A stretch of 64,000 nt of DNA, taken from Candidatus Cloacimonadota bacterium. GTDB lineage: Bacteria; Muiribacteriota; UBA6191. Below the pieces are notes generated by a model. The model was not told the DNA's origin. It searched no databases and was given only the letters and a program-made list of their open reading frames with translations. Shown here one piece after another: positions 12,538-58,650 of this stretch (position 1 is the first letter of the stretch; every line of letters starts with the position of its first letter). Position numbers and translations under genes: made by a program. Location of the stretch: the NCBI GenBank assembly GCA_023954715.1, contig JAGSHD010000008.1, forward strand, positions 62,001 to 126,000, in the 5' to 3' direction.

Positions 12538-12868
12538 TCCTTACTCTATTTAGATATTTAATTAACTGCTTTCTTATTATATTTCAATGTAGCTTTTTTG
12601 TAATTATTCAGATGGTCTCTTCGACAAAAGTTGAGGGTCATATAAGTTTCTCGTAGTTTTTTGCTGTATTTATGCGGTTTAGCTCATTATCATCTTTTAT
12701 GTTTAAAGCTTTTTTCGAGTAGTTCACTACACTTCAAAATCTTTAAATACAAAATATAATAATGATCAAAAACCTAGGTGTAATCAACCTTTGTAAATAA
12801 ATTGAAAAATAGTAGCTGAATAGTTAGGCTTATTTTTAAACAGTTCTAACAAAGTCTTTATGATCTTG
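12538..12868. other. 331-bp intergenic region holding hairpin repeat copy 1
   Basis: The region lies between two minus-strand genes. Apart from the palindromic repeat at 12674-12790, described separately, I see no open frame with a ribosome binding site and no terminator with a T-run. Confidence 0.6.
12674..12775. repeat. palindromic repeat family, copy 1
   Basis: Shares GCGGTTTAGCTCAT, TCGAGTAGT and ACTACACTTCAAA with the two copies near 58.4-58.6 kb. Arms at about 12684-12708 and 12740-12765 form a 25-position stem with 21 Watson-Crick pairs. Two further positions become G-U pairs if the minus strand is transcribed. Short outer arms GGTTT and AAACC extend the stem. The apical part carries a small hairpin GTAG-TTCA-CTAC. 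Compared with copy 2, several stem positions differ on both arms in a compensating way. Both flanking genes are on the minus strand. Confidence 0.75.
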
Positions 12869-13714
12869 CTATTTAATATTTGAGTCAATCTGTTTAGTAC
12901 GCATGCTTTCAAAGTCGAGATTTAGGGGTAATCGTTCAAGCATAGCTTGGTCTAAGCAGAGCAATCTAGTTTCGTTGTAAAGATCAGATATCAGCTTGAT
13001 TAATAATGGTGTTCTCTCTTTTGATATATGATCTAATTTTTCTAGGAATTTATCTGGTTTAACATTTAATAGTGCAATCGTTTTAGAAAGTTGTTTATAG
13101 CCTGGCATTAAAGTGTTGTTGATAGCAAAGACAATGATCAAAAATGCTCTTTGTATACTAAACAAGGACTGTTGAATCATTATAGAGTCCTCTCGAGAAA
13201 TATGAATACTTAACATTTGTGTGGAGAACTGTTTGACTCCATACTCTATTATTTTTTCAAAATGATGTTTTGTGACTTTTATCTTCAATTCACCAACACC
13301 AATCTGGGGGTGCTCCCAGATAAGAGTGGGTGGTTGATAGCAAGATATAATTGCTTGAGTACTAGGATCGACGCGGTCCATATCATTAAACAAGTCTAAC
13401 TGCGCTTGTAGTGATTGATAGCTTATGTGCATCAAGTCAATCTTTTGTTTTTGAAAATATAAACAGTCTAGCAGAGTCCCATCTTTTGTTGTTTGGCTTC
13501 TCTCAAGCTTCATTGTCTGACTTTTTTCAATGCATTTGCTCAGTTCGTTATAATCGCAATTTTGATATACAAATACCAACTCGATATCAGAAAACTGGTC
13601 ATGAAACTCACGAGCTAGTGATCCTCCGATATAAATTTGAGTCAAAGATTTAGGGTTTGGTAATTGTTGTATGATTTCTCGAACCATTTGTTTGGCTATA
13701 TTTATTTTATCCAT
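12869..13714 (-). CDS. nucleotidyltransferase-fold protein
   Basis: 281 residues. The N-terminal domain has the pol-beta nucleotidyltransferase signature: IYIGGSLAREF with GGS at 30-32, followed by the metal-binding pair FSDIELVF (D43 and E45). The rest (about 120-260) is helical, as in DUF4037-like and aminoglycoside-nucleotidyltransferase-like proteins. It probably transfers a nucleotide to a small molecule or protein; the acceptor is unknown. The gene starts at ATG 13714 and is not overlapped by neighbours. A resistance role is possible but unsupported. Confidence 0.7.
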   Translation of the reverse strand: MDKINIAKQMVREIIQQLPNPKSLTQIYIGGSLAREFHDQFSDIELVFVYQNCDYNELSKCIEKSQTMKLERSQTTKDGTLLDCLYFQKQKIDLMHISYQSLQAQLDLFNDMDRVDPSTQAIISCYQPPTLIWEHPQIGVGELKIKVTKHHFEKIIEYGVKQFSTQMLSIHISREDSIMIQQSLFSIQRAFLIIVFAINNTLMPGYKQLSKTIALLNVKPDKFLEKLDHISKERTPLLIKLISDLYNETRLLCLDQAMLERLPLNLDFESMRTKQIDSNIK

Positions 13715-13969
13715 TCGTCTCCACGTTAATTTCCCTCAAATTATATACCCACTGTCCACATCAATACTAGTTAAAATTTAATTTAGAAAATCAGCAAATT
13801 ATAATATATCTCTGAGAGATCCACATATCTTTTTATGGATTCAACTATGCTAACAAAAGGTTCGTCTAAAAAAGAGGTTAATCTTGGTTCAAAAAATAAA
13901 AAGGATTTTTCAATTTGATATAATATCCAACTATTTTTAATAAAAGAAGTCATAGAAGGGGTACTCAAA

Positions 13970-15343
13970 GTGCGTTATAATTTGGTAATACTATTTTTTG
14001 GATTGGTGGGAAGTCTATATAGTGACTCTCAGCGGAGTGAACTACAAACTGTATTAGCAAGGCTAAAACAAATGGAGAAAAACCATCAAGAGCTTTTCCA
14101 AAAAATGAAAGAAGATATGGCGGGTCTTTCTAAAAAAGTTATTCAACTTGAGCAAGAAAATAAGAAAATGAAAAATGTACTTCACCCAAAAGCCAAGGCA
14201 AATTTGGATGGAAAGTTTGTCGTTAAGTCGACTGATGGTAAGCATAAATTTAAAATCGGTGGAAGACTGATGAATGATTGGTCTTTTTTTTCAGGGACAC
14301 CAGGTATCACAACAAAAACCGGAAATGGCTTTTCGAATCGAACGGGATTTAGAAGAGCAAGGATTCACCTTAGTGGAAACAGTTATGGAAACACCGGTTT
14401 TAAAATACAATATGACTTTGCGAAAAATGGGGAAGTTTCTTTAAAAGAAACATATCTTCATAAAAAACTCGATAATGGGGATTCTTTTTGGGTAGGCCAT
14501 GTAAAAGAGCCAACGGGACTGGAAAACTCAACGAGTTCAAATCACTTTCACTTTATGGAGAGAAGTCTTTTGAACTCATTTTATCCAGATTATAATACTG
14601 GTTTTGGATACGAAAAAAATGGAGAAAGATCGCCACTATATTATAAGCTAGGGGTCTTTCATGATACAGATCTTGATGGTAGGTCTAGTCCAAAAACTGG
14701 GATTGGAGCGGATGTAGATGGAGCATATAATTATACAGGACGTATGGTTTGGCTCCCTAAATTTAATCGAGATACGAACGATTTATTACATGTAGGCGCG
14801 ACTTATTCTTTTAGAAATTCAAACCATACAAATATCCGTTTTAAATCAACACCAGAGTCTAATCTTTGGGCGAATAGTTTTGTAGATTCAGGCAATATCC
14901 TTGCTGAACACACTATTTTAAGAGGATTAGAGTTTGCTATGACTAAAAATAATCTATCCATTCACTCTGAGTTTATGCAAGCTAGAGTTAAAATGCTTAA
15001 TTCTAATCCGATTTTTCAGGGGTGGTACCTGTCGGCTGGATGGATGTTAACTAAAGAAGCCCGAACATATTTAAAAGGCAAACGAAAATTTGGCAGAATC
15101 ATCCCCAATAAAAACTATTCTGATGGTGGAAAGGGTGCATGGGAGATTGCAGGTAGAGTATCCCATGTTGATCTAAGTGAGCCAGAGTTTAATATTCGTG
15201 GTGGAATCTTAGATAACTATACCTTAGGCTTAAATTGGTATATGAACCCATCCGTTCGCATCATGTTGAATCACGTTTGGAGTGAGCTAGAGTCCCAAGG
15301 CCAAGCAAAGTCTCTAAATCTCCGTTTTCAAATGGACTTTTGA
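13970..15343 (+). CDS. OprP/OprO-type outer-membrane porin with N-terminal coiled coil
   Basis: 457-residue outer-membrane protein. A short signal peptide (MRYNLVILFFGLVGSLYS) is followed by a coiled coil (about 25-70, RSELQTVLARLKQMEKNHQE) and then a beta-barrel ending in Phe (LRFQMDF). Segments such as KFKIGGRLMNDWSFF and GFRRARIHLSGNSYGNTGFKI (shortened: FRRARIHLSGNSYG) match the phosphate-selective porin family; similar proteins carry various anions. The start is GTG at 13970 with AGAAGGGG eight bases upstream. Monocistronic. The N-terminal coiled coil probably trimerises or links to the cell wall, as proposed for similar porins in several diderm phyla. Confidence 0.82.
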   Translation: MRYNLVILFFGLVGSLYSDSQRSELQTVLARLKQMEKNHQELFQKMKEDMAGLSKKVIQLEQENKKMKNVLHPKAKANLDGKFVVKSTDGKHKFKIGGRLMNDWSFFSGTPGITTKTGNGFSNRTGFRRARIHLSGNSYGNTGFKIQYDFAKNGEVSLKETYLHKKLDNGDSFWVGHVKEPTGLENSTSSNHFHFMERSLLNSFYPDYNTGFGYEKNGERSPLYYKLGVFHDTDLDGRSSPKTGIGADVDGAYNYTGRMVWLPKFNRDTNDLLHVGATYSFRNSNHTNIRFKSTPESNLWANSFVDSGNILAEHTILRGLEFAMTKNNLSIHSEFMQARVKMLNSNPIFQGWYLSAGWMLTKEARTYLKGKRKFGRIIPNKNYSDGGKGAWEIAGRVSHVDLSEPEFNIRGGILDNYTLGLNWYMNPSVRIMLNHVWSELESQGQAKSLNLRFQMDF

Positions 15344-15642
15344 TTTAATAGCCTGTAGATATTTTTATGATTCGATAATTGGAGATGTGAAATTTTTAAT
15401 ATTTCAAAGACTCTACAGATGATATGGGCCTAAAACTTAGTTTCAGTTTTACAACTACTATAGTAGTTTAGAGTGATCAATAGTCTATGAACCTTTTATC
15501 AGTACAATTGACAACCTTTGTCTATATCAAAGAGATAGGTAATGTTGAAAGTAAAGTTTAGGCTTGTATAACTTCTTATAACGATCTATATTACAATTAA
15601 GCGTACTTTTGCAAATAAAAGTAGTTGGGATTGGAGAGCCGA

Positions 15643-16254
15643 ATGTCAGAAGAAGTAGTCATAGAGTCTGAAGAGAATGTAAATCAAGTAGCATGTCAAT
15701 TGTGTCAAAGTGAAATCGAAGAGGGAGCTGAAATCTTCCTAAATGGAAACAAAGTTTGTAACTCGTGTAAAAACTCTATAGAACAAGAGTTAAAAGAAGA
15801 AATTCCTAACTCTCAAAACTTAATTATGGGGTGCGTAGGTGGACTGCTAGGAGCAATAGTCAGTGGTTTAATATGGGCTGGAATCGTCGTTGCTACCGAT
15901 TACGAAATAGGATACGTAGCAATCGGTGTAGGCTGGTTGACAGGTCTTGGAGTATCGACATTATCTGGTGGAAAGAAATCACAATCTTTACAAATTGTGG
16001 CAGCAATAAACTCTGTAATAGGATTACTAATAGCTAAATATATTATGTTTGCTCATTACTTAATTCCTGTTTTAAAGAAGCAAGAAAACTATGATGCTGA
16101 CTATTTTGATCCAATACTTATATCTATTTTTCCAGAAAATGTTTCACTTATGCTTAATGGATTTGACGCCCTTTGGGTAATTTTAGCACTGAGTACTGCT
16201 TATAGTATCCTTGCTCCAACTAAATTAGATTTTGATAAACCTGTAGATGAGTGA
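15643..16254 (+). CDS. zinc-ribbon membrane protein
   Basis: About 203 residues. The N-terminal 45 residues hold two CxxC knuckles (C18/C21 and C39/C42) in a B-box or zinc-ribbon-like arrangement. Four hydrophobic segments follow (about 60-80, 85-110, 118-138 and 168-188). I start it at ATG 15643, which has GGAGAG five bases upstream. Its last eight bases overlap the next gene, a site-2 protease, so the two are probably cotranslated and may act together. A zinc-ribbon sensor or substrate for the protease is conceivable but is inference. Function otherwise unknown. Confidence 0.7.
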   Translation: MSEEVVIESEENVNQVACQLCQSEIEEGAEIFLNGNKVCNSCKNSIEQELKEEIPNSQNLIMGCVGGLLGAIVSGLIWAGIVVATDYEIGYVAIGVGWLTGLGVSTLSGGKKSQSLQIVAAINSVIGLLIAKYIMFAHYLIPVLKKQENYDADYFDPILISIFPENVSLMLNGFDALWVILALSTAYSILAPTKLDFDKPVDE

Positions 16255-17182
16255 TTCAGCATTAGATAAATTAAAAAAGTTACAAGAAAAAGAGTCGCCT
16301 ATAGTTGAAAAAACTGAGGCTTCTAAAAAGGGGCTCTTTGGCTTTTTACTAGCCATATTGATTCTATTGGTGACTAAATTTAAGTTTGTTTTAATATTTA
16401 TTTTAACAAAAGGAAAGTTACTGCTCGGGGCTTTGAAGATAGGGCCAATTTTGACGACCTTTTCTACAATGTTTCTATCCATTTGGGTTTATTCAAGCTT
16501 CTATGGATTAAATTTAGCCATTGGTTTGTGTGTAATGATTCTGATTCATGAGTTGGGTCATGGTGCCATAGCTAAAACAATTGGTATGAAAGTTGGGACT
16601 CCTGTCTTTATACCATTTTTTGGTGCCTTGATTACCCTTAAAAATCAGTTAAAATCAAAGTGGCAAGAGGCGTTGATAGGGGCAGGAGGGCCTATTGCTG
16701 GAACCATAGGTGGAGTTTTGGTGCTCTTGATTAGCCAGTATCTGGAGTCTGATTACTATAGAGACCTTTTTGTAGTGATTTCATGGATTACTTTTATGAT
16801 AAACTTTTTTAATTTATTACCTGTTGCAGGTTTGGATGGTGATAGGATATCCAACGCATTTAGACCAGTATATTGGGCTCCAGGACTTTTGTTGATGGTT
16901 GCTTTAATATATTTTCAAAATAAGTTGAGCGGTACTGTTCCTCCCTTTATGATTTTTATAATAATTTTAGGCGCATTTAAGGCTTGGAAAACTCATAAAA
17001 AGTCTTTAGGATTAGATAAATCTCGATTAGTTGATCAGTTAGTTCAGACTAAAAAATATGAACGAGAAGATGTAACTATTTTTGAATCTATCTGGTCTTT
17101 TGTAATATATTTTGGTCTAGCTACAACACTTAGCTTTTTGATGATTTATTCAAACAGCCTATTACCAAAAATTTCTGGGTAA
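16247..17182 (+). CDS. site-2-protease-family (M50) intramembrane metallopeptidase
   Basis: 311-residue membrane protease. The zinc site is intact: HELGH at residues 101-105 inside a membrane helix, and the distal motif NLLPVAGLDGDR with the third ligand D197. Usually this motif reads LDGGR; here Asp follows the glycine, an uncommon variant. Further membrane helices lie at about 33-52, 147-165, 178-192, 215-235 and 285-302. These enzymes cleave membrane-embedded substrates such as anti-sigma factors or transcription factor anchors. It overlaps the zinc-ribbon membrane protein gene by eight bases. No sigma/anti-sigma pair is adjacent. Confidence 0.87.
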   Translation: MSDSALDKLKKLQEKESPIVEKTEASKKGLFGFLLAILILLVTKFKFVLIFILTKGKLLLGALKIGPILTTFSTMFLSIWVYSSFYGLNLAIGLCVMILIHELGHGAIAKTIGMKVGTPVFIPFFGALITLKNQLKSKWQEALIGAGGPIAGTIGGVLVLLISQYLESDYYRDLFVVISWITFMINFFNLLPVAGLDGDRISNAFRPVYWAPGLLLMVALIYFQNKLSGTVPPFMIFIIILGAFKAWKTHKKSLGLDKSRLVDQLVQTKKYEREDVTIFESIWSFVIYFGLATTLSFLMIYSNSLLPKISG

Positions 17183-17212
17183 TTGTTGTGAAATTTAATC
17201 AAAGGAATTCTA

Positions 17213-17290
17213 ATGTCGATGATGTTAATAAATGTTGACAGCAAAAGTATAGAGCTTTTCAAACCCAATAGAATTAAAAGTAGTATGTAA
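17213..17290 (+). CDS. possible 25-codon small ORF
   Basis: ATG at 17213 follows AAAGGAATTC and reads MSMMLINVDSKSIELFKPNR up to a TAA at 17288-17290, three bases before the next gene. It may be a translated leader or chance. Nothing in the peptide is recognisable. Confidence 0.2.
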   Translation: MSMMLINVDSKSIELFKPNRIKSSM

Positions 17291-17293
17291 ATT

Positions 17294-17869
17294 ATGTGTC
17301 CATCATCAAATGATTACTCAAAAATAAGTGGTATTGTATATTTAATAGGCATGCCTGGAGTAGGCAAATTATCTATAGCAAAAAAGTTAAATGAGACTTT
17401 ACATTGGAAACTTCTTGATAATCATACCATCATTAATTGTGTGACTTCTGTGCTTGATCGATCGGATCAAAATTGGTCTTCGATTGTAATGAATATGCGT
17501 AAAACTTTGTTTACTGGGCTTCATAAGATCTCAACCGATAATCATCAATTGATTGTCACAGATGCGATTGCTAGTTGTGATGATGATATCTTTCAAAATA
17601 TCAAGGATTTATCCACTGCATGGAGATGTAACTTGTACATAATTCGCTTATCTTGCTCAGAGTCTGAAAATATCTTTCGTTTGACACAAGAAGGCCGTCA
17701 GTCAAATCATAAACTTGTAGATAAGGATTTACTTGTTCATATCAGAAACAACTATCATTTATTTCAACCTCAAGATTATGAACTTTGTATCGATCTTGAA
17801 ACAAGTGATCTCACTATACAGGAGTCAGCAGATCATATTTTGAACTGGCTAGAAAGCTTTAACGGTTAA
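17294..17869 (+). CDS. P-loop kinase-like ATPase
   Basis: 191-residue protein of the small-kinase P-loop fold (shikimate-kinase or AAA_18-like). The Walker A loop is GMPGVGKLSIAK (residues 19-30) with Leu where Ser/Thr usually follows the Lys; this GK-L variant is known in a subset of these proteins. A later QEGRQSNHKL segment resembles the lid with its Arg. The substrate is unknown. The ATG is preceded by a weak ribosome binding site; a possible 25-codon ORF lies just upstream. It ends convergent with an unknown minus-strand gene. Confidence 0.6.
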   Translation: MCPSSNDYSKISGIVYLIGMPGVGKLSIAKKLNETLHWKLLDNHTIINCVTSVLDRSDQNWSSIVMNMRKTLFTGLHKISTDNHQLIVTDAIASCDDDIFQNIKDLSTAWRCNLYIIRLSCSESENIFRLTQEGRQSNHKLVDKDLLVHIRNNYHLFQPQDYELCIDLETSDLTIQESADHILNWLESFNG

Positions 17870-17910
17870 GTTAGATTTTTTATTGAAATAAGCTTAAAGA
17901 TAGAGTTTGT

Positions 17911-18498
17911 TTATACCCATTGATTGACATTGTTTAAGTAGTCATAATCTTCTTTCATGCGTTTAGCCATGATTGCGATAAAGCTACAAATATCACTTAA
18001 TACAGTGTACGAGAATTGATTACTTAAATATATTTTACAAGGAGAAATACTTCGACCGGATGGTATGAGGGCAATTTCACTAGACGATATTTCAAGATTT
18101 ATATCAACGGAGTACCAGCAGATTAATTTATATACATTATTAGCTAGGCTTTCTTTGGTAAGAGAGCTATCTAGATCGTAAACGTGAAAATTTAAATCCT
18201 TTAACACTGCTATAATTAAGTCAATCTTTTCCTTTTGAGACTCGATTGATTTTATTTGCGAGTCATCTTTGAAATAGTTTTTAGCGATGTTGACTACTAT
18301 GTTACAGATACAAAGATCCATATCAAAAGAGTAGTCTTCTTGTAAGGGGACTTGTAAAATAGTCTTTGTTTGGCTTTCATCAGAGTTTAACTTTAATAGT
18401 CTGCCTTCTGTTTCAACAGAAAATCTAGTTAACTTGTTAAAGCCAAGACTATCAAGCATTTCTAGAATATGCTGTTTTTTATCCTCTATACTATCCAC
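17911..18498 (-). CDS. hypothetical cytoplasmic protein
   Basis: 195 residues, acidic, with no signal or membrane segment. It seems to have two halves, each containing an MDLCICNIVVNIAK-like or DINLEISSSEIALIP-like beta-rich stretch, but no known domain is recognised. It is convergent with the P-loop gene. The start ATG at 18498 is the first in frame. Function unknown. Confidence 0.6.
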   Translation of the reverse strand: MDSIEDKKQHILEMLDSLGFNKLTRFSVETEGRLLKLNSDESQTKTILQVPLQEDYSFDMDLCICNIVVNIAKNYFKDDSQIKSIESQKEKIDLIIAVLKDLNFHVYDLDSSLTKESLANNVYKLICWYSVDINLEISSSEIALIPSGRSISPCKIYLSNQFSYTVLSDICSFIAIMAKRMKEDYDYLNNVNQWV

Positions 18499-18817
18499 AA
18501 AAACCCTTTGATTTGTTTAATGACTTGTATTCTATCACAATTATTCGTATCTCATTTTTAGACATGTTTATTTTGTGAAGTTGGGATGATTTACACATTG
18601 ATACAAGGTTACTCTATGTTATTGGCTGTTGTTAAAAATTGTTAATTTTAACGATGTTATTATGTGACTAGACTCACCGCTCTCATCTGTAGAGATCAAA
18701 AATCTATACTAAAGTCTCCCTAAAAGACTAATTTAAATCTAAAACTAGTGTTTAGTATTGACTTTTGATATAAAAGTGATATCATATTCATATCTTATAA
18801 ATATCAAGGAGAGAAAA
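18499..18817. other. 319-bp divergent intergenic region
   Basis: It lies between the divergent hypothetical gene (minus) and the SPFH gene (plus). It contains the promoter candidate at 18758-18785; the rest shows no gene or clear repeat. Confidence 0.55.
18758..18785 (+). promoter_or_regulatory. sigma-70-type promoter for the SPFH-RHH operon
   Basis: TTGACT (18758-18763) and TATCAT (18780-18785) with a 16-bp spacer, about 33 bp upstream of the SPFH start codon at 18818. Confidence 0.55.
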
Positions 18818-19681
18818 ATGAACAAAGAATTTATTAGATCGAGTGTAAATGGTTGGTTTATGATTTTAGTTGAATTGGCTTTGTTAGGAGGCACTATTTT
18901 CGGAGCTGCATCCGAAAGTCCTTTGATAATATTTAGTACAATCGGATTGTTTACTATTCTTACTCCTGGTTTTTTTATATTGCAACCAAATGAAGCAAGA
19001 GTATTGACTTTATTTGGTACTTACAAAGGTACAGTAAGGACACCAGGGCTACATTGGGTAAATCCTTTGATGTTTCCGATGGCGCAGTTGAACTTAAAAG
19101 TCTCTTTAAGATCAAGAAACTTAAACGGTCATACATTGAAAGTAAACGATAAAAAAGGTAATCCTATTGAAATTTCTGCAGTAGTGGTCTGGAGAGTACA
19201 AGATACAGCAAAATCTGTATTTGATGTGGATGATTACTGTGAGTATGTAAAAATTCAAAGTGAGGCAGCTATTCGACATTTGGCGAGTATCTATCCTTAT
19301 GATCATGGTGAAGCAGGTGAAAAGACACTTAGATGTGGTATGGGAGAGGTAGCTGAGTCACTCCGAAACGAGCTGACAGATAGGTTTTCTCAGGCTGGAA
19401 TTGAAGTTGTAGAAGCCAGACTTTCCCATTTAGCTTATGCACCTGAGATTGCACAGGCTATGTTACGAAGACAGCAAGCAGAAGCAGTTATAGCAGCTAG
19501 AAAAGTTGTTGTAGAAGGTGCTGTAAGTATGGTAGAAATGGCACTCACAAAACTAAGTGAACGTGGTGTAGTAGACTTAGACGAAGAGCGAAAGGCATCC
19601 ATGGTTAGTAACTTATTAGTAATATTGTGTGGTGAAAAAGAAGCTTCACCAGTAATTAACACCGGTACTTTATACAGTTAA
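18818..19681 (+). CDS. SPFH/band-7 domain membrane protein
   Basis: 287-residue SPFH (stomatin/prohibitin/flotillin/HflK) protein that oligomerises on the inner membrane. Two N-terminal hydrophobic segments (about 13-30 and 36-54) precede the band-7 domain that starts at [21 protein letters not shown] and includes [16 protein letters not shown] and the [20 protein letters not shown] helix. The ATG at 18818 has AAGGAGAG upstream; an in-frame TTG at 18758 is rejected because it coincides with the promoter -35 box. A 54-residue ribbon-helix-helix gene follows after three bases. SPFH-RHH pairs recur in many bacteria and the small protein is often annotated as Arc-like. Its role is thought to be in membrane organisation or stress; the RHH partner suggests autoregulation. 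Confidence 0.9.
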
Positions 19682-19684
19682 ATA

Positions 19685-19849
19685 ATGGCTAAAAAGAAAA
19701 AATCATTTTTGTTAAGGATGGACCCAGAGCTCTTTGAAGAATTAGAGCGTTGGGCAGGGGATGAATTTCGCTCAGTAAATGGGCAAGTGGAGTTTATCCT
19801 CAGACAAGCCATCCGCAAGCGAAAAGGCCCAAGCAAGCAAGAAGAATGA
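19685..19849 (+). CDS. Arc-type ribbon-helix-helix small DNA-binding protein
   Basis: 54 residues encoded directly behind the SPFH gene (ATG at 19685, three bases after its stop). The sequence KKSFLLRMDPELFEELERWA followed by RSVNGQVEFILRQAIRKRK is a clear ribbon-helix-helix: a basic strand, helix A, a turn at SVNGQ and helix B. Family members bind DNA as dimers, usually near their own operon. It probably represses the SPFH operon promoter. The operon closes with a strong hairpin terminator at 19873-19900. This is not a toxin-antitoxin pair on the evidence here: no small toxin gene lies beside it. Confidence 0.8.
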   Translation: MAKKKKSFLLRMDPELFEELERWAGDEFRSVNGQVEFILRQAIRKRKGPSKQEE

Positions 19850-19872
19850 TATAAGGAATTTTAAACACACAA

Positions 19873-19900
19873 AAGCTCTCCAAGTTTGGAGGGCTTTTTT
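19873..19900 (+). terminator. rho-independent terminator of the SPFH-RHH operon
   Basis: Stem AAGCTCTCCAA / TTGGAGGGCTT with a loop of two to three bases and one G-T pair, followed by a T-run. Confidence 0.85.
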
Positions 19901-20056
19901 AGTAAGTAAAGATAGAAACATTTATGAAAAGTATAATGATATGTTTAGTTTTTTATATGGTTAAAAGCGACTGATAGACTAATTTAAACAGGGAGGTAAT
20001 AAATAATTTGCAATAATAAAGATAGAGGAGTAGTATGGTTTAAAATAGGAGGAAAC

Positions 20057-25588: not shown

Positions 25589-25593
25589 CCTTT

Positions 25594-46783: not shown

Positions 46784-46793
46784 TCTAATTAAT

Positions 46794-47572: not shown

Positions 47573-47577
47573 TTTAT

Positions 47578-48171: not shown

Positions 48172-48191
48172 ATAGTAGTCTGATTTCTTTA

Positions 48192-48566: not shown

Positions 48567-48587
48567 GATCCCTCTTAAAGTCAATAC

Positions 48588-49052: not shown

Positions 49053-49053
49053 T

Positions 49054-50468: not shown

Positions 50469-51623
50469 ATGAAAAAAAGTTTTTTAATAGCGTCAATTGC
50501 GATAGCTGGCTTAACCGGATGTTTCTCAAAAGGAGACTCTCCCTACCAAGAGCAATTGTATTCTGCTGAAAGCTTTTTTTTAAACTTTGAAGTTGATAAG
50601 TCAATAGCTATCATAGAGGAGTTAAAATCTGAAAAGGATCTTCCCGATAGATATTACTCGATTGCTGTTAAGAGTTATGTGAGAAAACAAAATTTTGCAA
50701 AGGCTTTTGAAGTACTTGCACAGTGGGATAAAGTTTCTAAAAAGGAGCATAACTCAGAGTATAAAGAAGTTTTGATCTCTTACTTACGTAATTTTATTAG
50801 TAAAGATAGTAAAACTTTAAAATTTGAAGCTATTGTAACTCTCGGTGAAATTAAAGACTTTGCATCTAAAAAAGCTTTGATGGATATGTTTTCACAAAAG
50901 TCTCGTGCTATTCGAGTAGCTGTTTGTTATTCGTTATTTTTGCTTGGTGATGGTGAGAGAGCATTGGGATATTTAAAAGATAGATCTATGTACTCTTCTT
51001 TAAACTCTCGCTTTTTGGCATCTGTTCTACTAACTCAGTTAGAGATCGAAGCTTTAAAGGATACTTATGTTCAGATGCTACAAGATCCTGAGCCTGCTAT
51101 TCAAGCATTAGCCATCAAATCCCTTGTTGCTCTTGATTTGAGAGACGAAGTTTCTAAAATCGAGACTGTATATCAAGAGAGCTACACTTCTCAAATGAAA
51201 ATGTTATGTTCTTGGGCCATGGCAAAAATGGGTAAATCTAGTTATAAGTCTGTTTTAAAGTCATATATTAAAAATGAAAAGACAAAAACTATAGCTCAAC
51301 TTTATTTGTTACGATTAGGCGATGATACCTACCTTGAGCCGGTTCTTAGTAATTTAGATAAACTAGACAATGAGAGTCGATTTTTGGTATATGAGTATCT
51401 TAAAGACAATAATCAATTAGAGTTGGTAGAAAAAGAGATAAAGAGTGTCTTAGGTGATTTTATGGGAGACGTTTTGACTAAAAAACTCGCCATAGAAATG
51501 ATTATTAAGCACAAAATACCAGTTAAAAAAGAGCTTTTACAAAGTCAGCTATCATCTCCTTTCCCTGAAGTACGTCTAGCAGGCACAAGAGCACTATTAC
51601 TAAGTGGTCTCTTAGATAAATAA
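50469..51623 (+). CDS. HEAT-repeat lipoprotein
   Basis: 384 residues. A lipoprotein signal ends in GLTGC (Cys at residue 18). The mature protein has helical pairs from about 30 to 380; the middle units resemble HEAT/PBS-lyase-like repeats, for example LKFEAIVTLGEIKDFASKKA and QDPEPAIQALAIKSLVAL. It is probably a periplasmic or surface scaffold. Followed after 75 bp by a 63-codon gene in the same direction. No enzymatic motif. Confidence 0.8.
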   Translation: MKKSFLIASIAIAGLTGCFSKGDSPYQEQLYSAESFFLNFEVDKSIAIIEELKSEKDLPDRYYSIAVKSYVRKQNFAKAFEVLAQWDKVSKKEHNSEYKEVLISYLRNFISKDSKTLKFEAIVTLGEIKDFASKKALMDMFSQKSRAIRVAVCYSLFLLGDGERALGYLKDRSMYSSLNSRFLASVLLTQLEIEALKDTYVQMLQDPEPAIQALAIKSLVALDLRDEVSKIETVYQESYTSQMKMLCSWAMAKMGKSSYKSVLKSYIKNEKTKTIAQLYLLRLGDDTYLEPVLSNLDKLDNESRFLVYEYLKDNNQLELVEKEIKSVLGDFMGDVLTKKLAIEMIIKHKIPVKKELLQSQLSSPFPEVRLAGTRALLLSGLLDK

Positions 51624-51698
51624 ACTGTCCAAATTTCCTATTATTAAATTTAAAATGCTATAATGCATATATAAGATAATTTTTTTCTAGGAGCTTCC

Positions 51699-51890
51699 AT
51701 GAATATAGATACCTCAGGACTAAAACAATCCATGTCTTTACAGACTCAATCCTCTAAAAAGTTGAGTGCGGGTAACACTCTGGGTGGTATGACAGATTCC
51801 ATTTCAGCAGAAAACAGCTTTGAAGCTAATTCTAAAGTCGTTCAGGCAAAAGATGAAATGTTAGGAACTTTACTCGATTTAAAGGCTTAG
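51699..51890 (+). CDS. mini-protein with flagellar-rod-like C-terminal helix
   Basis: 63 residues with a strong ribosome binding site (AGGAGC). The C-terminal part, SFEANSKVVQAKDEMLGTLL, closely resembles the terminal helix of flagellar rod proteins (FlgC/FlgG type), where SYEANxKVxxTxDEMLGTLLDL is common. The rod N-terminal helix and core are absent; the N-terminal 35 residues are Ser/Thr/Gly-rich. A terminator follows at 51903. It may be a reduced rod-like protein or a chance look-alike; no other flagellar gene is in the window. Confidence 0.6.
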   Translation: MNIDTSGLKQSMSLQTQSSKKLSAGNTLGGMTDSISAENSFEANSKVVQAKDEMLGTLLDLKA

Positions 51891-51902
51891 GTCATTTAAC
51901 GT

Positions 51903-51936
51903 AAAAAAAAACTCCCAAAAAAGGGAGTTTTTTTTA
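51903..51936. terminator. bidirectional terminator
   Basis: AAAAAAAACTCCC / GGGAGTTTTTTTT with an AAAAAA loop, between the mini-protein gene and the convergent gene ending at 51949. Confidence 0.9.
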
Positions 51937-51948
51937 TTAAAGAGGTAT

Positions 51949-53145
51949 TTATTGTTGAATTTGAAACAAACTAAGTAGCTCTTTATGATTATTTAAAATA
52001 TAGTTAAATCGAAGATTTTCTCTTGATTGAGCTCCACCATCATTAATCAAACCAAGTGGGTTTCCACCGGCGTACATTGTCCCTCGTGGGTCGCCATATT
52101 GATTAAATCCACGTTCCGCTAAATATCGGTCGATACTAAATTTTTGATTGTTTGATAAATCGTAGTTTTGCACTCTTATAGTTTGGTTACCAGTGTTTAC
52201 TGGACCTTGTACATTTTCTACGTGTTTTACAAAGCTTCCCGCTTGTGTGTAAATATATACTCGTTGTTCGTTTCTGTTTTGACCTGTAACTCCACCAGTA
52301 ATCCGTGCTACTACTTGAATTTGATTATTAGCAATTTCAGAAACAGAGTCAATCATAACGTTGATCCGATTATTACTTACAAAGCGTGGATCTGCTTGTA
52401 GCTCTTGCTGTAGTCTAACTTTAGCATCATAAGTAGCTCTTTCTCTGGATTGTTGTTGTTGAATAACAGAGTTACTTTGGTAGGGGCCATAATTTTGGTT
52501 GTTTCCGTATCCATTCCAAGAGTTTTGATAAGGTCGATGAAATTGCTGTCCCCATGGATTGTTGAAGCCGTTACCAAAATTAGGGTTAAAACCGTTTTGC
52601 CAATGGTTTGGTTGATAGTTTACTCCAGGACGATTTGTCTGATAAAACTGTTGACCTGCTTTATAATCTGGGTTAGTGAAAGGGTTTCTATGAAGTCTTG
52701 CTGTTTGCCCTGGAATCACATTTGTATGTGCATTCATAGCATTTATAGCATGAACAGGAGCACCTTCTCTAAATTGAGTGTTTCCACCATAACCACGAGC
52801 ATCCCAAGATGTGCTTAAATTACCGTTGAAAGAGGAATGGTTTCTAACAGGACCTCTATAGAAAAAAGTATCTCGCTTAAGCTCAGGATTGATTGAACCA
52901 ATAGGAGAGTTAGCAGTAACTCCATTATTGCTATCAACATCGGTCATCATAGACTCACGATTTAACATGTTTCGTAGTTGTGTAATCGATAGTTTAAGCT
53001 CTTTTTGCTTTTTTTCATCGGTCTCTGTTGCTAAAGATTGAAGTTTCGCTTGAAGCATCAATTGGATCTCTTCTCTTTGGTTTGCCCAGGACCCATTAAC
53101 GACTAATGCCAAAGTAATTGCTTTAAGTAAATTATTTAATTTCAT
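51949..53145 (-). CDS. exported Asn/Gly/Gln-rich low-complexity protein
   Basis: 398 residues with a signal peptide (MKLNNLLKAITLALVVNGSWA). Residues about 22-60 form a short coiled coil (EIQLMLQAKLQSLATETDEK). The centre (about 140-225) is a low-complexity, Asn-, Gly-, Gln-, Tyr- and Trp-rich region containing GFNPNFGNGFNNPWGQQF. A basic beta-rich C-terminal part follows (NRINVMIDSVSEIANNQIQV). It may be a surface or matrix protein; the aromatic Asn/Gly-rich centre resembles self-assembling sequences. No family recognised. Confidence 0.7.
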   Translation of the reverse strand: MKLNNLLKAITLALVVNGSWANQREEIQLMLQAKLQSLATETDEKKQKELKLSITQLRNMLNRESMMTDVDSNNGVTANSPIGSINPELKRDTFFYRGPVRNHSSFNGNLSTSWDARGYGGNTQFREGAPVHAINAMNAHTNVIPGQTARLHRNPFTNPDYKAGQQFYQTNRPGVNYQPNHWQNGFNPNFGNGFNNPWGQQFHRPYQNSWNGYGNNQNYGPYQSNSVIQQQQSRERATYDAKVRLQQELQADPRFVSNNRINVMIDSVSEIANNQIQVVARITGGVTGQNRNEQRVYIYTQAGSFVKHVENVQGPVNTGNQTIRVQNYDLSNNQKFSIDRYLAERGFNQYGDPRGTMYAGGNPLGLINDGGAQSRENLRFNYILNNHKELLSLFQIQQ

Positions 53146-53246
53146 GAATTCATCCTTCTATCTTAAGATCTACGTAATAAAATACGATAGAAAAGTAGAT
53201 ATGTTTCATAGTATTTCAAAAATAGGCTAAATAAACAAGATTTTGT

Positions 53247-55046
53247 ATGAACAAAGAAAAGAAAGAATCCATAGTAAAACTCTTACTAGGACTGGTAATG
53301 TTGGTGTTTTTAGGTTCGGGATGTACTGGATCTAATAATCCACTGTATATTGCTCCTCCAGGAGTCATAGAAGGCACAGTTTTAGATGCTGCTGCCAACC
53401 CAGTTCAGAGTGTTAACGTCATTTTAGAGAATCAATTGCAAAATTCTGGCAGTGTACAGACCGATGCAGCGGGTAAGTTTTCTATTAAATCAGCAGATCC
53501 TGGTGTATATGACTTAGTAGCAAGTAAAACAATTCAAGCTGTAAGTTACAAGGCTAGAGTCAGATATTTGAATGTTCATGATCAGGCACTAACAGCAACC
53601 GATATAAAAATTAAACCCGCTGGTGTGATTACTGGAAAAGTAATATTAGAAGGAAAAACCACCAATGAAGGTGTTGTTGTTACTCTAGAAGGAACAGGAA
53701 AGACCTCAACGAGTGATGCAGCGGGTAATTATAGTTTTACTGATGTTGCGTATACCGTAAATAACCTAAGTTATACAATTGGCTTTTTTAAAAATGACTT
53801 CGCCTTAGCTAAAATTGAGGATATTGGTTTAGTTGCTGGAGATACTATTGCAGTGGAGACAATTACTTTACAAAACTTAAATCCCGATGAAAGAGCAGAT
53901 TTATCAGGCTCTGTACGACTAGACTCTAAAACAGATTTGTCTGGTTTAAAAATAGAATTACTTGGTACAACAATCAATCCAGTAGAGATCGTATCTTCAT
54001 CAACCAATCCTGCTACTTTTGAATTTAAAAATCTGCCATTCGGAAGCTATATAATTAAATTTAGTCATGATGATTACTTACCCCAAGAGATTCCGCTAAC
54101 TTTAAAGACGGGACAACCAAATGTTGTATTACCTGAAGTAACTTTACTAGGATACTGGCATTTACCAGAGAACATCAAAGCAAGTGAACTAACATTGTCC
54201 CCCGGTGGATTTCAATTAGCTTATTGTAAAGATCATAACTCTAATACGAGTTATAATGGGGATATATTTTTAACAGACCTCCACGGGACTTCATATAATC
54301 AAAAAATTACTTTTAATGGGAAATGTGCTGCTGGACGAGGATTATCATGGTCTAATGACGGTAAATTATTAGCTTATACTAGAAAAGTAAACAATGACCC
54401 CGGTGCATTTACTTATGTTGCACTCATCTCCTCCTCTGGTGGTGATATTACAAAATTGATTAGTGAAACCAATGATGTTACACAGCCTTCTTTTGCTCCA
54501 GATAATAACTCTATGATTTATCAATATTCAAACGGTGCTGGAGGTCAATTAGTTGAATCAACTCTAACTTTGAAAAAATCAGGCTATGTTTTAGAAAATG
54601 AGGTTATGATTTTAAACACACTTTTAAACGATCAAGTTGGGGTGAATCAATTTACATCCATAGAGTATGGATTAAGTGGTAGAATCATTTATTCGCAAAA
54701 TGGTGTGGGTGGTATATCTAATAAAGGTGCCTTTACTTTACCAAACAATGCTAATGGTAATACCAGTCTAATATTTACAATAAATACGCAATTGGGTCTT
54801 GAAGAGCATGCTATCACCTATAATTTAGAAAATGATAAATTGGCTTTTTCGGTGTTAGATGGTACTTCAAGTCAAAATGGAATCTATATGTGTAATATCG
54901 ATGGTACCAATGCAGAGCGAATCTCAAGCGCTTATGGATTAAGTCTTGAAATTACGGATGATGGTAAATACATTTACTTCATAGATAAAAGAGCTAGCTA
55001 TTCTAAGAGAATTACTCGATTGATTGTTCCGAGTCAATGGAGATAG
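53247..55046 (+). CDS. lipoprotein with carboxypeptidase-regulatory-like and PD40/TolB-like repeats
   Basis: 599 residues. The lipoprotein signal ends in LGSGC (Cys at residue 26). Three regulatory-like beta-sandwich units follow: GVIEGTVLDAAANPVQSVNV, GVITGKVILEGKTTNEGVVV and LSGSVRLDSKTDLSGLKIEL. From about residue 300 come beta-propeller-like repeats of PD40 type (LSPGGFQLAYCKD, WSNDGKLLAYTRK, FAPDNNSMIYQYS). It is an exported surface or periplasmic lipoprotein for ligand or protein binding. The downstream radical SAM gene is convergent. Confidence 0.82.
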   Translation: MNKEKKESIVKLLLGLVMLVFLGSGCTGSNNPLYIAPPGVIEGTVLDAAANPVQSVNVILENQLQNSGSVQTDAAGKFSIKSADPGVYDLVASKTIQAVSYKARVRYLNVHDQALTATDIKIKPAGVITGKVILEGKTTNEGVVVTLEGTGKTSTSDAAGNYSFTDVAYTVNNLSYTIGFFKNDFALAKIEDIGLVAGDTIAVETITLQNLNPDERADLSGSVRLDSKTDLSGLKIELLGTTINPVEIVSSSTNPATFEFKNLPFGSYIIKFSHDDYLPQEIPLTLKTGQPNVVLPEVTLLGYWHLPENIKASELTLSPGGFQLAYCKDHNSNTSYNGDIFLTDLHGTSYNQKITFNGKCAAGRGLSWSNDGKLLAYTRKVNNDPGAFTYVALISSSGGDITKLISETNDVTQPSFAPDNNSMIYQYSNGAGGQLVESTLTLKKSGYVLENEVMILNTLLNDQVGVNQFTSIEYGLSGRIIYSQNGVGGISNKGAFTLPNNANGNTSLIFTINTQLGLEEHAITYNLENDKLAFSVLDGTSSQNGIYMCNIDGTNAERISSAYGLSLEITDDGKYIYFIDKRASYSKRITRLIVPSQWR

Positions 55047-55048
55047 TT

Positions 55049-56431
55049 TTAGTCGGCTTGGTTTGAAGCATAAATATTATAATGGTTATCTTGTATCCAT
55101 TGTTTTAAACGAGATAATCGATTGGCTCTAATTTCTGGGGTATTATCAACACTAAACCATAATGATGGGTCTTGATTTTCTGGAAATTGAATTGCATATC
55201 GTTCTTTATTATCTGATAGAAACGACCCTGGTAATGCGATACAGCTATTAATTGAGGTAAACCCTGAAATATATTGTTTATGATTGTCTAAAAACTGAAG
55301 AGTTTCTAAAAAGTGATCTTCTGTTTCACCAGGAAACCCAACAATAATATTGAGCTGGGTGTTTATTTTAGATTCAAAGATACGTTGAAGTGCTTCTGAG
55401 CAGTATTTTTGGTTGAATCCCTTTTTCATCATTTTCATTACATCATTAGACCCACTTTCAAGCCCTAAGTTTAAAGTCTGTAAACCATAGGATTTTAATG
55501 TATTTAAATGGGTGCTTGTAAGTTGTTTATTTGGAGTGGCTAAAGCGATCCATGTAAATCTCTGTCCATTGTTTGCTAGTTTTTCAAAGGCACTACAGAG
55601 TTCTTCCATCACTCCATTGATTAACAAATCGTTAAACCATAGCTTACGGTAGCCCAATTTATAATAATGGCTTAAAATGGCTACGATATGATCTGTAGAT
55701 AGTTTTCTAAAGGTTCCCATAGATTTAAAGTCAGAGCAAAATCTACATTTAAACAAACAAGATCGACTTGTTATAATTGGTAGAGCGTTTTCTACATAAG
55801 TGTTTAGTAATAGGGATGAAAAATCTGGGACAACTGATTGATTTAGGCTACTTTGAACAAATTGTCGATCAATACATAGTTCTCCCATAGTGCTGTATAC
55901 ACCTTGTGGAGACGGTTTGTTTTTGTTGCTGTCTAACCATCGTATGATTTCAACAATAGCTTGTTCACCTTCTCCCACAAAATAATAATCAAAGGATTTG
56001 GAGATTTTAACTCTTGGTTCTTTGAAGGTTGTTTCTGGTCCACCAGCGATTAAGACTTTATTGGTATGCTGTTTTAATCGATCTGCTACAATGTTGCTAA
56101 CCCATACATTAGAGTCTAACACAGTAAATCCAATGTAGGGTGCAGGATGTGCAATCAATTGATTTACAAGCTGATCAATTAAAGGCTCTAACAAAGGTAA
56201 AATCTCATGTTCAAAGCGCTGTGGGCAGAGCCATGGATCTAAATTGCTCTTATCCCAGAGTCTAATGCGATCTTGATGTTTTAACTTGTTGTAACACTCG
56301 ATATTAAAATCTATAAGATCACATTGGATATCATGTTGATTCAAAGATGATTTAAGAAGAGCAATCCCTAAGGGGGGGAGTTCTGGCCCCCATGAAGGAC
56401 AGATTGTGAGTATAAGCTTGGATTGACCCAT
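55049..56431 (-). CDS. B12-binding-domain radical SAM protein
   Basis: 460 residues. The N-terminal 130 residues look like a cobalamin-binding Rossmann domain (ILTICPSWGPELPPLGIALL) without the DxHxxG motif, which is often missing. The radical SAM cluster motif is SRSCLFKCRFCSDF (CxxxCxxC), followed by ATPNKQLTSTHLNTLKSYGL and NLGLESGSNDVMKMMKKG (SAM-binding). It probably methylates or rearranges a small molecule or a peptide. It lies three bases after a 109-residue gene, suggesting that that protein is its partner or substrate. Confidence 0.85.
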   Translation of the reverse strand: MGQSKLILTICPSWGPELPPLGIALLKSSLNQHDIQCDLIDFNIECYNKLKHQDRIRLWDKSNLDPWLCPQRFEHEILPLLEPLIDQLVNQLIAHPAPYIGFTVLDSNVWVSNIVADRLKQHTNKVLIAGGPETTFKEPRVKISKSFDYYFVGEGEQAIVEIIRWLDSNKNKPSPQGVYSTMGELCIDRQFVQSSLNQSVVPDFSSLLLNTYVENALPIITSRSCLFKCRFCSDFKSMGTFRKLSTDHIVAILSHYYKLGYRKLWFNDLLINGVMEELCSAFEKLANNGQRFTWIALATPNKQLTSTHLNTLKSYGLQTLNLGLESGSNDVMKMMKKGFNQKYCSEALQRIFESKINTQLNIIVGFPGETEDHFLETLQFLDNHKQYISGFTSINSCIALPGSFLSDNKERYAIQFPENQDPSLWFSVDNTPEIRANRLSRLKQWIQDNHYNIYASNQAD

Positions 56432-56434
56432 GAT

Positions 56435-56764
56435 TTACAGAGCTGGTTTAAAAAGGCTCTTTAGATCTTCTTGAAGTAATACAATGACCTGTGGCATGCC
56501 ATGTGCACTCAAGAGTTGATTTAGATGCTTTTCAATGCGCTTTTTTTCTAGGGGCCATGGTTCTGACAAATTTAAGTTTGGTATAAAAGGAAAAAATCGA
56601 TCATGAATGGTATGAAAAATACTATAAAGAAGTACCTTTCGTACTTCCCAATTTTGTAGATTTAAAACTAAAGTAAAGCCGTCACTAATATGCGGTAAGT
56701 CTTTATATTGGATGATACCGTCTGCATCGATTTGGATTCCGTCAAATTTGTGAGAGTGGTTCAT
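56435..56764 (-). CDS. hypothetical protein paired with the radical SAM enzyme
   Basis: 109 residues, no signal peptide. It contains HISDGFTLVLNLQNWEVRKV and a Pro/Phe-rich FFPFIPNLNLSEPWPLEKK segment. Not recognised; it does not look like a leader-binding PqqD. Its stop is three bases from the radical SAM start, so both are translated together. It might be the substrate or a modulator of the enzyme. Confidence 0.55.
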   Translation of the reverse strand: MNHSHKFDGIQIDADGIIQYKDLPHISDGFTLVLNLQNWEVRKVLLYSIFHTIHDRFFPFIPNLNLSEPWPLEKKRIEKHLNQLLSAHGMPQVIVLLQEDLKSLFKPAL

Positions 56765-56846
56765 TGCTACCTTTTTAATAGAAAAATCATTGATTTAAGC
56801 TTACTAGTATACTATATATTTAAATTATTTCGTATGGGAATTAGAG

Positions 56847-57683
56847 TTAGTTTAATATTTTTGAATCTAGAAACTTTAAGGGGTCTATAGATTGATTGAG
56901 TTTCTTAATCTCAAATATAAAGATATTCTCTGTTGAATTATTTGTAGTATATCCGATAATTTCTTGTGACTTAATCATTACATTTTGCTTTTTTGCTTTA
57001 ATTGATCCGAGCTTTATATATAAGGTAAAAAAGTTATCGAGATGATCAAGGATAACCATATTGCCATAACCTTTAAATTTACCACTATAAATAACTAAGC
57101 CGGCTCTAGATGCATATACACTTTGTTTTTTTGCGACCTTAAGTAAAATACCATTATTATTAGTTCCGTTATTTTGTTCACCAAATTTACCATTTGTAGC
57201 TAGAGTAGGGTTTTTTATTGGCCATAGATATTGCTTCTTTTTTGAGTTATTTACCTTAGGTTGCACTTTAGGGTTAGTAGGTTGTTTATACTTTTTAGGT
57301 TTCTGATTACTTCTTGTCTTTTTGTACTTTGGTTTAGAAGGGGGAGGGACATACTTTTTTACAGCATGTTTGGGATGTGGATGTTGTTCAAATTTCTGTT
57401 TAGGGTTTTCTTTATAAGTACTTCTAGGGATATATATTCTAGCTAAAGGTAAGATATTGTTGCGTACTTTATTAGCTCGTTTCAAACGCTTTTCAGATAC
57501 GTTAAATCTTCTAGATAGAGACCAAAAACTATCACCTTTTTTGGTTTGGTAATAAAAACCTTTTCTTTCTTTTGTGCCTGTTCTTTTTGAAAAAATCTTT
57601 TTTAAAAAGTTAAAAGAATAAGTCTTTTGGGCAGACGGAAGCAAGAAGAAGGACATCATTATGTAGCTGATTAAAAATTTCAT
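56847..57683 (-). CDS. LysM plus catalytically degenerate M23 (LytM) protein
   Basis: 278 residues with a signal segment (residues 2-18). A LysM domain (about 43-88, YYQTKKGDSFWSLSRRFNVS) binds peptidoglycan. It is followed by a Lys/Pro linker (89-150) and an M23 fold (about 151-272). All metal and catalytic positions of M23 are replaced: the HxGxD motif reads NNGIL (176-180), the second His motif reads YIKLG (K224), and HFEIR reads IFEIK (F256). Such degenerate LytM proteins (EnvC, NlpD) activate amidases during division. So it is probably an amidase activator or structural cell-wall protein, not an endopeptidase. Confidence 0.8.
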   Translation of the reverse strand: MKFLISYIMMSFFLLPSAQKTYSFNFLKKIFSKRTGTKERKGFYYQTKKGDSFWSLSRRFNVSEKRLKRANKVRNNILPLARIYIPRSTYKENPKQKFEQHPHPKHAVKKYVPPPSKPKYKKTRSNQKPKKYKQPTNPKVQPKVNNSKKKQYLWPIKNPTLATNGKFGEQNNGTNNNGILLKVAKKQSVYASRAGLVIYSGKFKGYGNMVILDHLDNFFTLYIKLGSIKAKKQNVMIKSQEIIGYTTNNSTENIFIFEIKKLNQSIDPLKFLDSKILN

Positions 57684-58087
57684 TATCCGTTTGAGTTGCG
57701 TTTAAACCGGTAATCTTTCTAATTAAACTTCGCCATGAATCTAAGTTGCGCTTTTTTTATTACATGGTTCTATGGTTTTCGGTATAGCTTCATTTGTAGA
57801 ATAGTACAAATACGACTATGATTTATTATATAAACTTAAGCTAGACATTTTCTAGGGACAGCATCTATTTTTATACATGGATCCTGCGAAGTATAATGCA
57901 TTTACGCTACATTTTGTCTTGTCCTTGTTTGTACAATGTATTTTGACTTAGTGTAGTTTAGGTTTTTTTTTACTTTTGATGGAAAGCTCTTAGCTTTACT
58001 ATTGTTTTTTAAAAAATAGTGATATCTTTTATGCTTAAAGAAGGTTAGAAGTAACTGACCAAGTTAAAGTTTATTTAAGGAGCTACA
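57684..58087. other. 404-bp divergent intergenic region
   Basis: It lies between the LysM-M23 gene (minus) and the 62-codon gene (plus). It holds an AT-only hairpin near 57999-58020 (ACTATT-G-TTTTTT / AAAAAATAGT) but no clear gene, terminator or promoter box I would commit to. Confidence 0.45.
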
Positions 58088-58276
58088 ATGATCAAACCAG
58101 AACATCAAGATGATTTAAAATTTATGGCACGAGCTATTTTCAGTCACGAATTGGCAAATAAAAAAGTTTTTAATGAGCCAGATCTTGTAAGAGATTACTA
58201 CCGAATTGTTCGATCATTAGAGCCAATTTTTGATGATATTGATATTGATAAGATGCTCACAACCTCCATATTCTAA
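58088..58276 (+). CDS. small acidic protein, unknown function
   Basis: 62 residues starting at ATG 58088 with AAGGAGC upstream, and with a hairpin terminator at 58310-58342. The sequence is helical and acidic, containing LKFMARAIFSHELANKK and EPIFDDIDIDKML. No family or motif recognised. The good ribosome binding site and terminator support a real gene. Directly downstream is a tandem repeat with copies of the palindromic element. Confidence 0.7.
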   Translation: MIKPEHQDDLKFMARAIFSHELANKKVFNEPDLVRDYYRIVRSLEPIFDDIDIDKMLTTSIF

Positions 58277-58309
58277 ATAGTAGGTAGATTTGAGGGCTTA
58301 TCGCTCTGA

Positions 58310-58342
58310 AACAGATTGTTCTTTTGCAATCTGTTTTTTTTT
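58310..58342 (+). terminator. terminator of the 62-codon gene
   Basis: AACAGATTG / CAATCTGTT with an eight-base loop and a run of T. Confidence 0.8.
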
Positions 58343-58361
58343 GTTTCCGCGTGTTTTTAAT

Positions 58362-58470
58362 GCGGTTTAGCTCATCATCATCTTTTGGGCTTAATGCTTT
58401 TCTCGAGTAGTAAACTACACTTCAAACGCAGTAAGCCCAAAATATAACGACGATCTTCAACCTCGGTTGT
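58362..58470. repeat. palindromic repeat family, copy 2
   Basis: The best-folded copy. The arms at about 58372-58397 and 58428-58453 align as a 26-position stem with 21 Watson-Crick pairs, of which GGGCTTA / TAAGCCC is the core. Three of the five remaining positions become G-U pairs in a minus-strand transcript. Outer arms GGTT and AACC extend it. The apical part contains GTAG-TAAA-CTAC and the conserved ACTACACTTCAAA. Confidence 0.8.
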
Positions 58471-58497
58471 TGACGTACCTTGGGAGCTTATTTTTGA

Positions 58498-58526
58498 AAC
58501 AGATTGTTTATTACAGTCTGTTTTTT
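58498..58526 (+). terminator. second terminator-like hairpin (duplicated unit)
   Basis: AACAGATTG / CAGTCTGTT with a seven-base loop and T-run; a diverged duplicate of the one at 58310. Confidence 0.65.
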
Positions 58527-58544
58527 CTTTTCATAAGTTTTTTT

Positions 58545-58650
58545 ATGCGGTTTATCTCACTATGATCTTTTGGGCTTGAAGTTTTTTTTGAGTAATAAAC
58601 TACACTTCAAACGGTGTAAACCCATAAGGTAACGAAGACTTTTGAATCCC
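58545..58650. repeat. palindromic repeat family, copy 3 (diverged)
   Basis: Keeps ATGCGGTTTA, ATCTTTTGGGCTTGA and AAACTACACTTCAAAC but has lost much of the outer stem; the inner arms still pair GGG with CCC. It is the second unit of the tandem duplication. Confidence 0.65.

Follow-up and report, generated by a model that had tools for sequence, protein, structure and literature searches.

Three related palindromes in the window

We analysed a stretch of 64,000 nucleotides (positions 62,001 to 126,000 of contig JAGSHD010000008.1, assembly GCA_023954715.1) from a Candidatus Cloacimonadota bacterium; this whole stretch is called the window below. An earlier note on its sequence had described three copies of a palindromic repeat of about 100 bp. 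These copies are real and alike, lie at the positions that the note gave (Table 1) and belong to a family of hairpins found at the 3' ends of genes. They share the words GCGGTTTAGCTCAT (GCGGTTTATCTCAC in copy 3), GAGTAG or GAGTAA, and ACTACACTTCAAA, and have in common an imperfect hairpin of about 105 nt, the fold of which is kept in copies 1 and 2. Both of these form a single long hairpin that is better on the minus strand, with a folding energy of -24.9 kcal/mol and a z score of -4.0 for copy 1, and -41.8 kcal/mol and -6.9 for copy 2, against mononucleotide shuffles. Copy 3 has lost the fold (z -0.4 against the same kind of shuffles).

The three copies do not have the same setting. Copy 1 is cargo of a miniature inverted-repeat transposable element (MITE). 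Copies 2 and 3, behind a gene and terminators, are of the original kind, duplicated locally in tandem, and neither is a MITE: a unit of terminator and hairpin was duplicated with a period of 185 bp, and no terminal inverted repeat (TIR) was found within 160 nt of either copy, with up to 3-4 mismatches allowed. The earlier note had taken the three as one repeat. This holds for the common hairpin, but the copies are not equivalent, as one is mobile cargo, two are in tandem and the last is unfolded. The note also missed the ancestral setting, namely the 3' end of a gene with the hairpin in the same orientation as the gene.

Table 1. Features around the three copies in the window. Copies 1 to 3 are given by their covariance-model limits; TSD, target-site duplication; ORF, open reading frame.
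Feature	Position	Strand	Remark
Left TSD, GCTTTTTT	12592..12599	.	7/8 match to 12828-12835, GCTTATTT
228-bp MITE with copy 1, TIRs GTAATTATTCAGATGG / AGCTGAATAGTTAG	12600..12827	+	31 full-length relatives genome-wide, of which 22 have a TSD of at least 7/8
Copy 1, hairpin core within the MITE	12671..12779	-	Minus strand folds better
Right TSD, GCTTATTT	12828..12835	.	
62-aa ORF (...LTTSIF*), gene upstream of copies 2 and 3	58088..58276	+	
Intrinsic-terminator-like hairpin CAGATTG...CAATCTG, then T run, immediately 5' of copy 2	58312..58342	+	Read from the sequence
Copy 2, intact gene-end hairpin, class A	58359..58467	-	85 nt past the stop codon, gene-oriented; antisense strand folds better
Second terminator-like hairpin CAGATTG...CAGTCTG with T run	58500..58526	+	With copy 3, second unit of the tandem
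Copy 3, decayed gene-end hairpin (duplicate)	58544..58652	-	Fold lost

A family of gene-end hairpins with a selected fold

The window genome is a draft assembly, 86% complete, and the comparison within the genus rests on one genome of a sister species. Three covariance models were used: R1 from the window family, R2 built from the sister species, and R3 from nine hairpins of G012, a genome of another family in the same phylum. The window genome has about 40 copies by blastn and about 65 places by covariance model. Over 96 relatives, R1 matched only in the sister species, the sole other genome of the genus in the comparison. With R2, 28 loci were found in the sister species and, at E values down to 1e-24, about a dozen additional ones in the window genome; two genomes from a different genus of the family had no match. 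The scan that the earlier note had proposed thus yields far more than three copies, and the number of matches in both species, together with very strong covariation, excludes chance. Searches farther away were empty: an exact-pattern scan of public genomes and a scan of plasmids and phages gave 0 matches, the region near enolase in 80 named genomes gave nothing at E<0.1, the literature gave chance primer matches only, and no Rfam family matched in the window above its gathering score, with only chance-level matches at E 0.7-0.8.

The earlier note had claimed that copies 1 and 2 differ by compensatory changes and that selection acts on the fold. Both claims were borne out in a larger alignment of 43 non-MITE copies from the two species, which was fitted to the model and therefore favours structure. 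Standard pairs fill 92.4% of the pair cells, and both-sided changes occur at 28 of the 37 pairs (237 cells). The covariation score is 0.441, compared with 0.146±0.009 after shuffling (none of 500 shuffles reaches it) and at most 0.118 when the partners are slid. This margin is far beyond the bias of a model-fitted alignment. Pairing is kept while the sequences diverge strongly between the window species and its sister species. The foot reads TATGCGG...AACC, and the ends are GCGGTY...GTAACC or GCGGTTT...AACC. Two interruptions are conserved in both species, an A opposite a G beside a TTTT/AAAA block and an internal loop under the tip hairpin. These speak against mere palindrome-perfecting mutation, which would erase them. 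The fold of the hairpin family is under selection.

The hairpins are placed right behind stop codons and are always gene-oriented. Almost all of the copies examined in the two classes, A and B, follow an ORF in the same orientation, and one directly follows a tRNA gene. The distance from the stop codon to the core is bimodal: it is -1 to 10 nt in class B (13 copies) and 49-99 nt in class A (23 of 25 copies at 72-89), and the interval of 10-49 is empty. Class A hairpins are preceded by a G/T-rich spacer with a T tract at its end. An intrinsic terminator directly follows the hairpin in 9 of 13 class B copies compared with none of 25 class A copies, and no fewer than two class A hairpins, L153 and copy 2, have a true terminator on their 5' side. 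The hairpins are not intrinsic terminators themselves; terminators are structures of their own, placed in front of some class A hairpins and behind those of class B.

The genes in front are mostly housekeeping genes, named here by sequence recognition and not by curation. They include those of enolase, phosphoenolpyruvate carboxylase, acetyl-CoA synthetase (Acs), RpsB, RplQ, NrdB, Prs and pyruvate kinase, and also GcvH, AhcY, SucD, dihydrolipoamide dehydrogenase, polyhydroxyalkanoate (PHA) synthase, flagellins and OppF. Six orthologous loci are common to both species (enolase, MoaE, SucD, OppF-like, SPOR-domain and cytochrome c; 59-95% protein identity). At these loci, the foot is often alike, and the distal stem and tip differ via paired changes. 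The family is genus-level, old and partly vertically inherited.

Partial copies were also seen. Only the right half of the hairpin is present at L004:2859-2921, L014:1009-1066 and L033:704-760; the first overlaps the stop codon of a PHA synthase gene, and the second starts 7 nt past a 113-aa ORF. At contig ends (L033:1-410, L041, L156 and L157), gene-end hairpins and partial copies cluster beside an apparent 5S rRNA. Two other ideas about the sequence were dropped. In the left arm, a possible short ORF (ATGCGG...TAG, MRFSSSSSFVFKAFFE) is broken by a stop or a frameshift in L102, L103, copy 3 and L030, and a tRNA-like start, GCGGTTTAGCTCA, comes with no further tRNA features.

The mobile element that carries copy 1

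When the copies of the window genome are aligned with their flanks, most of them extend to an element of 226-228 bp with terminal inverted repeats GTAATTATTCAGGTGG...TAGCTGAATAGTTAC. The repeats GTAATTATTCAG...CTGAATAGTTAC are present in 31 full and 16 short MITE copies. An 8-bp TSD with at least 7/8 identity flanks 22 of the 31 full copies and 12 of the 16 short ones (34/47 overall), and copy 1 is flanked by a near-perfect one. The earlier note had reported no TSD for the repeat, because its borders were drawn too narrowly; what moves is the whole MITE of 228 bp, not the palindrome of 100 bp.

The 16 short copies, of about 131 bp, lack precisely the hairpin, which is therefore cargo that can be separated from the element. 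Such hairpin-less elements are found at L046, L049, L051, L053, L056, L063, L066, L067, L069 and L070. Another short copy, L064, retains GATG-AGCTAAACC, a remnant of the hairpin foot in inverted form, which looks as though the rest had been removed by a template switch. Short and full forms are mixed on a tree of the MITE arms; its support is too weak to date gain or loss of the core, and at least two switches are forced. The hairpin may have been gained or lost repeatedly at the same foot. As the left 72 nt of the MITE are similar to the spacer that precedes class A hairpins in the window genome, the MITE would most simply derive from a class A gene-end unit. Its GTAA ends and 8-bp TSD suggest an IS66-type origin. 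An IS66-type transposase (PF03050), the one transposase family searched for, was not found in the 86%-complete window genome.

About 20 further copies in the window genome are, like copies 2 and 3, without TIRs, and MITE ends were seen in none of the 12 sister-species copies (of 28) that were examined in detail. In the window species, one gene-end unit became MITE cargo and was then scattered to dozens of places. Copy 1 is one of these scattered cargos, and the ancestral form is the gene-end hairpin, not the MITE. ERIC (enterobacterial repetitive intergenic consensus), a palindrome of about 127 bp, has been reported at the 3' ends of genes, and the window family shares this location. Copy 1 and about 30 relatives are true MITE cargo with TIR and TSD, like known MITEs (PMC10969869), but the hairpin also occurs free of the MITE, both in the sister species and at gene ends that are orthologous between the two. 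The window family further differs from MITEs and ERIC in that its fold, and not its TIR, is conserved.

Folding strand and possible modes of action

Of 50 copies, two of them MITE-borne, 49 have the better fold on the strand antisense to the gene when RNA parameters are used, and all 50 do with DNA parameters. On this strand, 73 G·T pairs were counted, against 36 A·C (G·T of the other strand). This agrees with the remark of the earlier note that residual wobble pairs fit the minus strand, a count that is partly circular, as the alignment leans to the folding strand. From the fold, the note had inferred either a structured RNA or a mobile palindrome. Each holds in part, because the fold is selected and copy 1 is MITE-borne. 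Preference for the minus strand alone does not mean RNA, since a by-eye check saw no conserved promoter side on that strand and the DNA strand is equally biased.

A similar layout is found in G012. R2 gave three weak matches there (E about 1e-4), and a model-free hairpin scan of 209 kb, which at a loose threshold was informative only once both strands were required, turned up a separate group of hairpins of very high stability. R3, the model made from nine of them, has a covariation of its own of 0.404, compared with 0.172. It found at least 110 copies of full length in G012 and practically none in the rest of the phylum. Among 29 examined, 27 start -17 to 20 nt from the stop codon of an ORF, and the antisense strand is the better folder in all 29. 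The G012 set looks like a larger, younger-looking analogue of the window family. At L252-L320, these hairpins are about 101 nt long, with the folding strand AATGAGATGAAGGTTGG...CAAGATTCGCTCATT, directly 3' of stop codons; a repeat, TGTAGGGACAGGCCCCTGTGCCTGTCC, often lies downstream (flanks of L294, L300, L308 and L311). About ten genera across the domain have multiple copies of the G012 tip motif, GAGGCGTAC-loop-GTACG, with a reversed control pattern near zero. Where these cases were read, the motif is mostly at the tip of hairpins of 117-144 nt, and its strand is the more stable one. Such hairpins seem to be a widespread uncharacterised class of palindromes. The tip pattern GAGGCGTACN{3,7}GTACG was noted at L347, L350, L351, L352, L354 and L355. 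As a lead, the tip of class B hairpins in the window genus (CGACGTGTAC-TAGT-GTACACGAG) resembles the G012 tip.

The earlier note had matched the repeat to no riboswitch, REP or attC, and the comparison with known systems agrees with it. Repetitive extragenic palindromes (REPs) measure 20-40 bp and bear a GTAG or CGTC tag at one end; they lie for the most part 3' of coding regions, and for many of them a role as RNA is assumed (PMC3733652). The window family is likewise made of dispersed extragenic palindromes, mostly behind coding regions, with a conserved fold (PMC3733652, PMC2817692). Its members are about 105 nt long, have no GTAG or CGTC at the foot and, unlike REPs, are always gene-oriented, anchored to stop codons and better folded on the antisense strand. 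The best match to a REP-associated tyrosine transposase (RAYT; Y1 transposase, PF01797), which goes with the GTAG class of REPs, has an E of 0.09 in the window genome, and length, tag and RAYT together led us to reject a REP identity for it. Papers on Geobacter genomes describe unexplained palindromic multicopy intergenic families (PMC2700814, PMC2996986). These are equally uncharacterised, but gene anchoring and strand bias are shown for the window family alone; the two are set apart by description, not by sequence.

The closest formal likeness is to attC sites. There, too, a gene is followed by an imperfect hairpin whose structure is kept while the sequence varies, and by analogy only, the favoured bottom strand and the conserved stem interruptions also agree (PMC2727003). 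Both species have a genuine integron integrase (IntI; 464 bits at L127:3452-4402 in the window genome, G000:C9, and 461 bits at L129:3858-4811 in the sister genome, G001:C43). It is nevertheless extremely improbable that the hairpins are attC sites of this resident chromosomal integron. They have no R'' RYYYAAC or R' GTTRRRY boxes and no R/L core boxes, and they are dispersed behind chromosomal core genes and not arrayed in cassettes, whereas by eye the cassette region beside intI has attC-like ends of canonical sequence. The analogous G012 hairpins occur in a genome with no integron integrase at E<1e-40. On these grounds, an attC identity was rejected. Separately, TCTAAC...GTTAGAC sites of attC-like form were seen near both intI genes, in a lineage with few relatives.

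We infer that the hairpin acts as a folded single strand, most likely of DNA, at the ends of transcription units. Taken as a whole, the reading that we tentatively prefer is one of genus-level gene-end hairpins with a selected fold, spread by a MITE in the window species and acting as a folded template strand, most likely as DNA. The relevant strand would be the template strand, which is antisense to the gene, and the most likely form would be a DNA hairpin extruded or exposed on it. A putative DNA-processing protein could recognise its shape (foot helix, conserved mismatches and tip hairpin), and possible outcomes are recombination, end protection or supercoil handling. This would be attC-like in principle without being an attC, and use of the resident integron integrase is only hypothetical. 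A folded DNA strand is the most economical explanation because a sense RNA would be expected to show the reverse bias, and for a minus-strand RNA the promoter would have to lie in flanks that look unconserved by eye and that, in class B, are terminators. Several points weigh against it. No protein partner of the hairpin was found. With a mean of -32 compared with -41 kcal/mol, the sense RNA is a good folder as well and may have a role in the mRNA. The class B hairpin usually precedes a terminator and is thus transcribed, and the wobble count has the circularity mentioned above. Homology between the window genus and G012 rests on layout and tip resemblance, since R2 gave only the three weak matches and R3 none in the window genus. 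Only six loci are shown to be common to both species, and most are not.

Other readings have to be set against these data. The hairpin might work in the RNA of the 3' untranslated region, like REP or ERIC, as a sense hairpin that keeps exonucleases away from the 3' end or provides a site for an RNase. Constant sense orientation behind genes, highly expressed genes among the hosts, the position of class B between stop codon and terminator and the location and presumed RNA action of many REPs (PMC3733652) all fit this. We consider it somewhat unlikely, since the sense fold is weaker than the antisense one in 78 of 79 copies from two lineages, the opposite of what selection on a sense RNA would give, and since class A hairpins come after a T tract, sometimes after a real terminator, and none of the 25 has one downstream. 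A minus-strand RNA made at gene 3' ends would account for the strand preference, but the state of the promoter-side flanks, which in class B are terminators, and the lack of an Rfam family make it very unlikely. Alternatively, the family could be a purely selfish palindrome, with older MITE copies that lost their ends, no host function and paired changes made by quasi-palindrome correction. Most full copies in the window genome are indeed MITEs, and related multicopy palindromes exist in other genomes. This, too, seems unlikely to us: the 28 sister-species copies showed no MITE ends where examined in detail, the fold is kept at orthologous loci, the mismatches that correction by arm copying would erase are conserved, and the hairpins are anchored to stop codons in a tight, bimodal manner.

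Extragenic palindromes are usually seen as scattered selfish repeats, and the window family departs from that view. Hairpins that are anchored to stop codons, co-oriented with genes, inherited at orthologous loci and carry dozens of paired substitutions on the antisense strand imply that the fold needs a reader. The gene-end pattern makes action as RNA or as folded DNA concretely testable. A functional hairpin that was captured and amplified by a MITE would also mislead repeat counts. Finally, the likeness to units of a gene plus attC bears on the origin of integron attC sites. It is a bolder and quite unlikely idea that the hairpins are genome-wide, shape-recognised single-strand DNA sites on the template strand at gene 3' ends, attC-like units outside integrons for a putative recombinase or nuclease. 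If it were true, such gene-end sites would be a candidate source of the attC of integron cassettes.

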